From IMG/VR virus record IMGVR_UViG_3300020183_000015, positions 62,001-126,000 of that record: a stretch of 64,000 nucleotides of DNA. The stretch is one strand, 5' to 3'. Below the pieces are notes generated by a model. It had not been told where the DNA came from. It saw only the letters and a list, made by a program, of their open reading frames with translations, and did not search any database. This document shows, piece after piece, positions 61,377 through 62,858 of this stretch. Origin of the DNA: a virus. Position 1 is the first letter of the stretch. Every line of letters begins with the position of its first letter. A program made the translations under genes and the position numbers.

Positions 61377-61910
61377 ATGAATTACTTACTTTTTGTCTAT
61401 TACGACAGTACAGTTGAAAACTCAGAAACATCCACAAATGAAATTGCAAGTAGAATTGCAGAACAAATGACATCTAAAGAAGCGAAGTTTATGTTCGGAG
61501 ATAAACACGCGATATTTCACTTTGCGTCAGACATTTCAATCGAAGAAATGTCAGGGTGGGTTGATATTATCAACTACGAGTTAGATTGTTTTCAGTATTT
61601 TTTAATTCAAAAACCAAGAAGTTCTGCATCAAATATGCCAAAAGACAACTTAGATCATTTATTATCGTTAAAGAAAACCAAACCAACAAAACTAAAACCA
61701 TTAGAACCAAAGATAAATTGGGATTTCAAACCAACAAAAGATAATGGTGAAAGTTTTATGGACATCGTAGACATAGTCATAAACTCAAAAAGACCAAAAG
61801 TTTGTAACATGACTTTGGACGAGTTACTTGACAAAATCAGCTTAGAGGGAATGGAGTCTTTGACTCAGATTGAAAAACAAAAACTGGAAGAATATTCAAA
61901 ATCAATATAA
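61377..61910 (+). CDS. Uncharacterised protein upstream of the sigma factor
   Basis: The 177-residue protein begins with a ferredoxin-like alternation (YLLFVYYDSTVENS, helix, KFMFGDKHAIFHFAS). It then has a Pro/Lys-rich linker (about residues 95-120) and a helical C-terminus (MTLDELLDKISLEGMESL) typical of small T4-like phage proteins. No catalytic motif is visible. It is separated by 10 bases from the sigma factor gene and probably shares its transcript from the host-type promoter upstream. Confidence 0.65.
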   Translation: MNYLLFVYYDSTVENSETSTNEIASRIAEQMTSKEAKFMFGDKHAIFHFASDISIEEMSGWVDIINYELDCFQYFLIQKPRSSASNMPKDNLDHLLSLKKTKPTKLKPLEPKINWDFKPTKDNGESFMDIVDIVINSKRPKVCNMTLDELLDKISLEGMESLTQIEKQKLEEYSKSI

Positions 61911-61920
61911 TTAATAATAC

Positions 61921-62721
61921 ATGAAAGACAAAACACTAGGACCTCACATCAATCAAGATGAAATACAATATTATCTTAAAGATATTAGAAAAATTAAAGT
62001 AATGACTCCTGAAAGGGAGAAAGAGTTAGCTAAACTAATGAAGTCGAATGAAACATCCACTTATCAAAGACAAAAAGTCGAAGAAGAACTATTAACGGGG
62101 AATCTACGATTTGTAATCACGGTTGCAAAACAATATCAGAATCAAGGATTAGACTTATCGGATTTGATTGCTGAAGGTAATTTAGGTCTTATGAAAGCGA
62201 TCAAAAATTTTGATTGGAATAAAGATCTTAGATTTATATCTTACGCAGTCTGGTGGGTAAAGCAATCAATAATCCAATCTCTAAATGACAATTCACGAAC
62301 AATTCGTCTTCCCGTCAATGTAGTCCAAGATTTACAGAAAGCAAAGAAAGAAGTTGAACAAACAGGAAAAAAACTTGAGGACAAGTTCGCATCTTTACCA
62401 TCAATGATTGATTTAGACATGAACATCAATGAAGATGGTGATACTCTTATAGATATGATTATCAATAGAGATGCTGACGCTCCTGACGCAGTTTTTGACA
62501 CAAAAGATTTGTTAAAAGAAAAATTGATTTCTTTGTTAGGTGTTCTTGATGACCGAGAAAAAATTATTGTGGAAGATTATTTTGGTTTGACTGGCACACC
62601 AAGAACCTTAGAAGACATTGGATCTGATTTTGGTTTAACCAAAGAACGTGTACGTCAGATTAAAGAAAAAGCCCTACGTCGATTAAGAAATGACTGTAGT
62701 GAATTGTTTGACTATCTATAA
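61921..62721 (+). CDS. Sigma-70 family RNA polymerase sigma factor (RpoD-like, region 3 shortened)
   Basis: The 266-residue protein has sigma region 1.2/2 (GNLRFVITVAKQYQNQGL, then AEGNLGLMKAIKNFD, then the -10 recognition helix FISYAVWWVKQSI) and a full region 4 with helix-turn-helix (LEDIGSDFGLTKERVRQIKEKALRRLRND). The core is close to primary sigma factors of Bacteroidetes. The segment between, normally regions 3.0-3.2, is compressed to a charged linker (about residues 143-185). T4 instead uses the minimal sigma gp55 for late genes. This protein probably redirects host polymerase to phage promoters, possibly the TATTTAT octamer (inference). A structured RNA follows in its 3' region. Confidence 0.85.
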   Translation: MKDKTLGPHINQDEIQYYLKDIRKIKVMTPEREKELAKLMKSNETSTYQRQKVEEELLTGNLRFVITVAKQYQNQGLDLSDLIAEGNLGLMKAIKNFDWNKDLRFISYAVWWVKQSIIQSLNDNSRTIRLPVNVVQDLQKAKKEVEQTGKKLEDKFASLPSMIDLDMNINEDGDTLIDMIINRDADAPDAVFDTKDLLKEKLISLLGVLDDREKIIVEDYFGLTGTPRTLEDIGSDFGLTKERVRQIKEKALRRLRNDCSELFDYL

Positions 62722-62824
62722 AAAGGGTTGAACCGAGATTACCCTTACAACTCGGCAGAAGGTGCCTGAAGTCACCAGGGTGAAACCCCCCAATCCTATC
62801 TATATGGTAGGATGAAACCACACT
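62722..62824 (+). ncRNA. GC-rich structured RNA element with predicted pseudoknot
   Basis: This stretch is far richer in G+C than its surroundings and has no coding frame. Predicted pairings by eye: AAGGGT (62723-62728) with ACCCTT (62741-62746), interleaved with CCGAG (62733-62737) and CTCGG (62751-62755), which forms an H-type pseudoknot. Further hairpins are GGTG/CACC (62761-62776), GGGT/ACCC (62778-62788) and an eight-pair stem ATCCTATC/GGTAGGAT (62793-62813). A strong terminator follows at once. It could be a 3' stability element of the sigma mRNA, a processed small RNA or a ligand-binding element. I match it to no known riboswitch or ribozyme. Confidence 0.6.
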
Positions 62825-62858
62825 CCCCCACTGGTACCGGTGGGGGTTTTATTGTTTT
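62825..62858 (+). terminator. Strong terminator after the sigma unit
   Basis: CCCCCAC (62825-62831) pairs with GTGGGGG (62840-62846), with an inner near-palindrome TGGTACCG, followed by TTTTATTGTTTT. It ends the sigma transcript and the structured RNA. Confidence 0.88.

Follow-up and report, generated by a model that had tools for sequence, protein, structure and literature searches.

A structured RNA family absent from Rfam is carried by many large freshwater viruses with Bacteroidota-like promoters

The DNA analyzed here (the window) is a 64,000-nucleotide part of a 133,946-base IMG/VR virus record. Direct reading of its sequence placed a G+C-rich stretch between a sigma-70 family gene (61921–62721, plus strand, 266 aa; Pfam Sigma70_r2, r4, and r1_2 above cut-off), which is a neighbor lying outside the RNA described below, and an intrinsic terminator on the same strand, composed of the hairpin CCCCCACTGGTACCGGTGGGGG (62825–62846) and a T-rich run ending at 62856. 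The downstream gene (62919 onwards) encodes a membrane protein with a weak, sub-threshold Tetraspanin match only. The small gene upstream of the sigma gene (61377–61910) matched DUF6576 above the Pfam cut-off (1.7e-11) and keeps this order in many relatives. The G+C content of the element was 0.49 over 62721–62821, and local values in 100-base segments reached 0.45–0.55, whereas the surrounding segments were mostly at 0.25–0.38. Thus, both the G+C-rich patch on which the original prediction had been built and the terminator that it had placed directly behind this patch were borne out.

The crossing complementarities and the three hairpins of that prediction were likewise present, at 62723–62817 on the plus strand. 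In particular, AAGGGT (62723–62728) is complementary to ACCCTT (62741–62746), forming the putative stem S1, and CCGAG (62733–62737) to CTCGG (62751–62755), forming S2; the two stems cross and would give an H-type pseudoknot, for which the loops TGAA, ATT, and ACAA should, by general experience, be long enough. Three hairpins follow: P3 (GGTGCCTGAAGTCACC, 62761–62776), with a bulged T62772 and an invariant GA (62768–62769) in its loop; P4 (GGG...CCC, 62778–62790); and P5 (ATCCTATC...GGTAGGAT, 62793–62813). A conserved GAAA (62814–62817; columns 100–103 of the alignment A1 described below), which is GGAA in two homologues, joins P5 to the terminator. At the place of the terminator, the homologues carry a G+C-rich hairpin and a T-run of varying sequence, positioned further downstream in L179–L184.

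Homologues were collected from viral contigs. A search with the sigma protein yielded 80 loci, in 33 of which (hand count) the element follows the sigma stop codon, and pattern searches of the IMG/VR viral contigs retrieved approximately 90 contigs (94 entries, including overlapping fetches) with 58 distinct element sequences. Single-sequence folding, which cannot show pseudoknots, was compared with 200 shuffles: the element alone folded moderately better than its shuffles (z −2.2; 7 of 200 were as good), as did the element with its terminator (z −2.8; 1 of 200); thus, single-sequence energy alone is weak evidence for the element. The proposed structure was then tested on A1, the alignment of the 58 distinct homologues. 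It paired 94.9% of the cells, compared with 87.5 ± 0.4 in shuffles, and pairing fell to 31–49% when the partners were slid along the alignment; the covariation score was 0.277, compared with 0.143 ± 0.007 in shuffles. In addition, RNAalifold independently proposed S2, P3, P4, and P5 from A1.

Pair changes were counted by parsimony on a tree of the sigma proteins, which is independent of the RNA. Pair-preserving double changes occurred at four of the six P3 pairs (11, 6, 6, and 1), with both G-C and C-G found at the loop-closing pair, and at four pairs of P5 (2, 8, 9, and 1), in which 96.2% of the A1 cells were paired. P4 showed four double changes; its outer pair was AU in 29, GU in 19, and GC in 9 of the 58 homologues, and its two inner pairs were invariant. 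As for the pseudoknot, four inner pairs of S1 were invariant among the homologues and pair 4-26 switched from A-U to U-A (6 double changes, 5 breaks). S2 was invariant in 58 of 58 distinct homologues, even though the middle three bases of each of its strands had been left free in the first search pattern, and a relaxed search for members with a changed S2 returned nothing above 17 bits, whereas even the weakest of the genuine members that were scored reached 72.5 bits. Since S2 never varies, the proposed pseudoknot rests on complementarity, invariance, and the partial covariation of S1; the invariance of S2 fits a pseudoknot without proving that S2 pairs. P3 occurs as two quite different blocks that alternate repeatedly across the tree, which suggests that the RNA has also been exchanged between phages by recombination, so that the parsimony counts are upper estimates. 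Compensatory changes in related phages had been named as the test of the original prediction, and strong covariation in three hairpins and one S1 pair was what the 58 homologues displayed; on this comparison of aligned sequences, we regard the evidence for the predicted fold as decisive.

The same conserved core could also be read as a short peptide gene (TTG AAC CGA GAT TAC CCN TAY AAC TCG GCR GAA), a reading that draws on several variable sites falling on third codon positions and on (M)NRDYP(Y/H/N)NSAE being kept in most copies. However, variation at one of these third-codon sites is explained by the pairing of S1 pair 4-26, and the peptide would have to be translated through the pseudoknot. 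The putative start codon is lost (TCG) in two loci, one of them also frameshifted, and the frame lacks a conserved stop, its length varying from 7 to 42 residues. We rejected the peptide gene on the lost starts, the frameshift, and the lack of a conserved stop, and consider it extremely unlikely.

The RNA family is new by Rfam and by the mainly open-access literature. The Rfam 15 covariance models gave no match at the gathering cut-off in the whole window; in a permissive search, the best score of the window copy was 18.5 bits, where the cut-off is 39, and the matches of two divergent homologues were all far below the cut-off. These results agree with the earlier remark that no known riboswitch or ribozyme core was recognizable. 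Self-cleaving ribozymes (hammerhead, HDV, pistol, twister, and hatchet) were likewise without a match in the Rfam searches, and the HDV topology needs hairpins inside the pseudoknot, which the phage RNA does not have. Searches with exact patterns on the conserved core, including a core 18-mer, found no homologue in prokaryote genomes of 84,980 species; none was found in 72,556 plasmids or in 50,697 annotated phages either, the latter giving one 22-base chance match. Twenty records and G000 each contained exactly one genuine copy; a further weak match lay in unrelated sequence. Of the large records that share the sigma gene, three (290,887, 274,138, and 296,330 bases) lack the RNA, whereas three of similar size (291,867, 281,269, and 272,576 bases) carry it; in the RNA-lacking record G014, the best match scored 16.7 bits and lay in unrelated sequence. 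The single copy per carrier and the absence from some large records with the same sigma gene indicate an optional single-copy cassette of jumbo-size phages, among genomes of up to approximately 296 kb.

We addressed the genomic context of the RNA in the retrieved loci, using hand counts of the context table. The sigma gene was directly upstream in 44 of 90 loci; in the remaining loci, the upstream gene came from one of several unrelated families or none was close. The divergent copies (L175, L178, and L179–L184) lie away from both the sigma gene and the membrane-protein gene, and relatives of the sigma gene without the RNA (L006 and L028) have a plain terminator only at that place. Thus, linkage to the sigma gene is not a fixed property of the RNA. 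The original prediction had offered, among other options, a regulatory element of the sigma transcript, which fails in general given the other contexts and the plain terminator kept by RNA-less sigma relatives. It had also offered an mRNA-end stabilizer, that is, a cis element of the upstream message acting as a 3′ end stabilizer or RNase-resistant cap for the sigma mRNA and for other genes that the RNA abuts. The window and 34 distinct abutting contexts fit this option, with the element no more than 17 nt behind a stop codon, no host promoter, and the terminator next. However, at least 16 distinct copies are isolated and have their own promoter, the sigma relatives without the RNA manage with a plain terminator, and the sequence is far more constrained than a stabilizing hairpin needs; since the RNA is also found behind other genes, or by itself under a promoter of its own, stabilization fails as a general explanation, and we consider a cis element of this kind quite unlikely.

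The context was also informative with respect to the gene downstream. In the window and in about half of the loci, an aptamer-like fold and a terminator precede a gene approximately 60 nt further on, an arrangement expected of a riboswitch or attenuator controlling the membrane-protein gene (62919 onwards). However, in 38 of 89 loci, the gene directly downstream lies on the opposite strand, an arrangement that speaks against an attenuator, and the membrane-protein gene is not near the RNA in L175, L178, and L179–L184. Moreover, a TATTTAT-type motif recurs just upstream of the membrane-protein gene, no conserved antiterminator was discernible by eye, and no Rfam riboswitch matched, which makes such control very unlikely. 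On the basis of these genomic contexts, the sigma-specific 3′ element and the downstream-gene attenuator were both rejected.

The copies differed in their promoters according to their distance from the upstream gene. A TAnnTTTG box was found 16–36 nt upstream of 16 of the 21 isolated copies (those more than 20 nt from the upstream gene; approximately 0.02 expected per locus), compared with none of the 34 abutting copies (Fisher p 7e-10, without correction for shared ancestry), and 13 of these 16 also carried TTTG or TTGG at the −33 distance. Among the other five isolated copies, three have a TATTTA box; the remaining two (L170 and L171) lie behind what is left of another, shortened small RNA. 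In flavobacteria, the −7 consensus published for sigma A is TAnnTTTG, located at −12 to −5 from the transcription start (PMC9723704). This housekeeping sigma box suggests that the hosts are Bacteroidota and that the carrier phages probably infect this group. Transcription from a host housekeeping promoter would also mean that the isolated copies are probably expressed early in infection. A second motif, TATTTAT, showed the strongest enrichment of all 7-mers in the 80 nt preceding the window ORFs (14 ORFs compared with 0.93 expected), and this enrichment was on the coding strand; it is probably the phage's own (late) promoter element. In the window, TATCTAT (62713–62719, plus strand), one mismatch from TATTTAT, overlaps the last sigma codons, with its end 5 nt before GGG; sigma-adjacent homologues usually have the exact TATTTAT. 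Since sigma genes that lack the RNA use these codons as well, the motif near the RNA is only suggestive; its codon choice was set aside as proof of a promoter, and TATCTAT is retained as a candidate promoter for the window copy. For the family as a whole, a promoter of its own, a terminator, and independence of context were thus observed, whereas the window copy itself has only this one-mismatch candidate promoter.

The covarying fold, the context independence, and the own promoters of isolated copies, established by computation together with the conservation, support the remaining option of the original prediction, a new phage small RNA. We proposed, with somewhat better than even confidence, that the element is a stand-alone small RNA gene of large, probably Bacteroidota-infecting phages, most likely trans-acting, with a pseudoknot recognized by a protein. 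The predicted transcript of about 130–145 nt would comprise a short variable leader, the invariant H-type pseudoknot, the three covarying hairpins, and the intrinsic terminator. It would be transcribed from whichever promoter is at hand: the host housekeeping promoter for isolated copies, and, for abutting copies as in the window, together with the upstream gene and possibly also from a phage TATTTAT-type promoter. The pseudoknot sequence is invariant, whereas P3 and P5 are free in sequence apart from their pairing; from this combination, a recognized fold is expected rather than an antisense seed. The recognizing protein might belong to the host machinery, to a host defence, or to the phage, with P3–P5 serving as a scaffold; given the host-type promoters of the isolated copies, the RNA could plausibly act on host machinery or defence early in infection. 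Base-pairing is the usual mode of bacterial small RNAs, flavobacterial ones included (PMC9723704), and the single-stranded parts (e.g., TTGAA, ACAA, CGGAA, and GAAA) could pair with host or phage mRNAs. However, conservation is concentrated in the structured pseudoknot, and no consistent common target emerged at the phage gene starts of three genomes, in which no orthologous gene start stood out and the best duplex energies were at or near the range of 20 shuffles. Thus, we consider a base-pairing small RNA possible but on the unlikely side.

We compared this proposed trans-acting RNA with known systems. RNA-based anti-CRISPRs (Racrs) are phage small non-coding RNA genes with their own promoter that act in trans by occupying a host protein, and they are recognized by similarity to CRISPR repeats (PMC10651486). 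The phage RNA likewise has its own promoter and might work like Racrs (PMC10651486); membership is not claimed, and its core 18-mer had no exact match in the 84,980 prokaryote species, in a search limited to exact matching. T4-like cyanophages carry the structured RNAs CFrI, PhotoRC-II, wcaG, and the glutamine riboswitch (PMC9964418). These resemble the present family as conserved folded elements in large aquatic myovirus genomes (PMC9964418); however, the phage RNA matches no Rfam family by covariance model, and its promoters are of the Bacteroidota type. The fold and the terminator also invite comparison with another class. In type III toxin-antitoxin RNAs (ToxI and relatives), the pseudoknot unit is repeated and a toxin gene follows on the same strand; they share with the phage RNA a small size, a pseudoknot, and an intrinsic terminator. 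However, the phage RNA is a single unit without tandem repeats, the membrane-protein gene occupies the downstream position in the window with no toxin gene on the same transcript, and c3, the protein gene most closely linked to the RNA, lies on the opposite strand and does not occur in the window's record; thus, the repeated units and same-strand toxin of this class were not found.

Partner genes were sought by co-occurrence in three RNA-bearing and three RNA-lacking large genomes. The number of genes common to the former and missing from the latter (23) was close to that with the opposite pattern (20), as expected from mere lineage differences, with no signal beyond lineage. The c3 gene lies downstream of the RNA and convergent with it on the opposite strand in 37 loci (e.g., L173, L089, and L179), and encodes a diverse family of 131–151 aa with invariant His, Arg, and Thr and an N-terminal helix, in a single copy per record. 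As a partner it was rejected, being absent from the window's record, from G000, and from most RNA-bearing records searched. No Pfam or PHROG family matched c3 above the cut-off, and Foldseek returned nothing for its model (E ≥ 0.24); with no recognized family or fold, the idea of a nuclease-like toxin was dropped.

Bacteroidota are a major group of freshwater bacteria, and to our knowledge few RNA families are known from their lytic phages. Given the supported structure, the invariant core, the promoter evidence, and the many relatives, the RNA can be tested at once in any carrier isolate. The RNA is also a marker of an accessory island, located between the sigma and membrane-protein genes, where uncharacterized phage RNAs and variable genes gather. 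A bolder proposal, which we put forward tentatively and consider rather doubtful, is that the invariant pseudoknot of an early phage RNA acts directly on a conserved machine or defence of Bacteroidota, blocking or redirecting it, and that this RNA sits in an island holding at least two further unclassified small RNAs; if true, this would be a new functional class of inhibitory phage RNA.

In related contigs, the interval between the sigma and membrane-protein genes is a variable island, in which cytosine methyltransferase-like genes (c10), zinc-ribbon-like genes (c5; both named by eye from sequence), c3, c6, and several small RNAs are present in some contigs and absent from others. RNA-A (L007:3844–3998; also in L005, L008, and L009), a second putative small RNA with copies 74–75% identical in L054–L056, L059, L063, L064, and L253, combines a promoter of the Bacteroidota type with a long closing stem (GGATGAGTAG...CTACTCAATCC). 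It lies behind the sigma gene in this island, or elsewhere, and had no Rfam match. A third, RNA-B (L007:4030–4229), likewise without an Rfam match, has a host-type promoter and a terminator, and occurs also in L084, L086, L093, L110, L111, L122, L131, L138, L142, L162, and L164 and, shortened, in L170 and L171. In several loci, RNA-B lies directly upstream of the gene family c6, which has a sub-threshold MuF_C match (E 0.02), in an order that recalls type III toxin-antitoxin loci.
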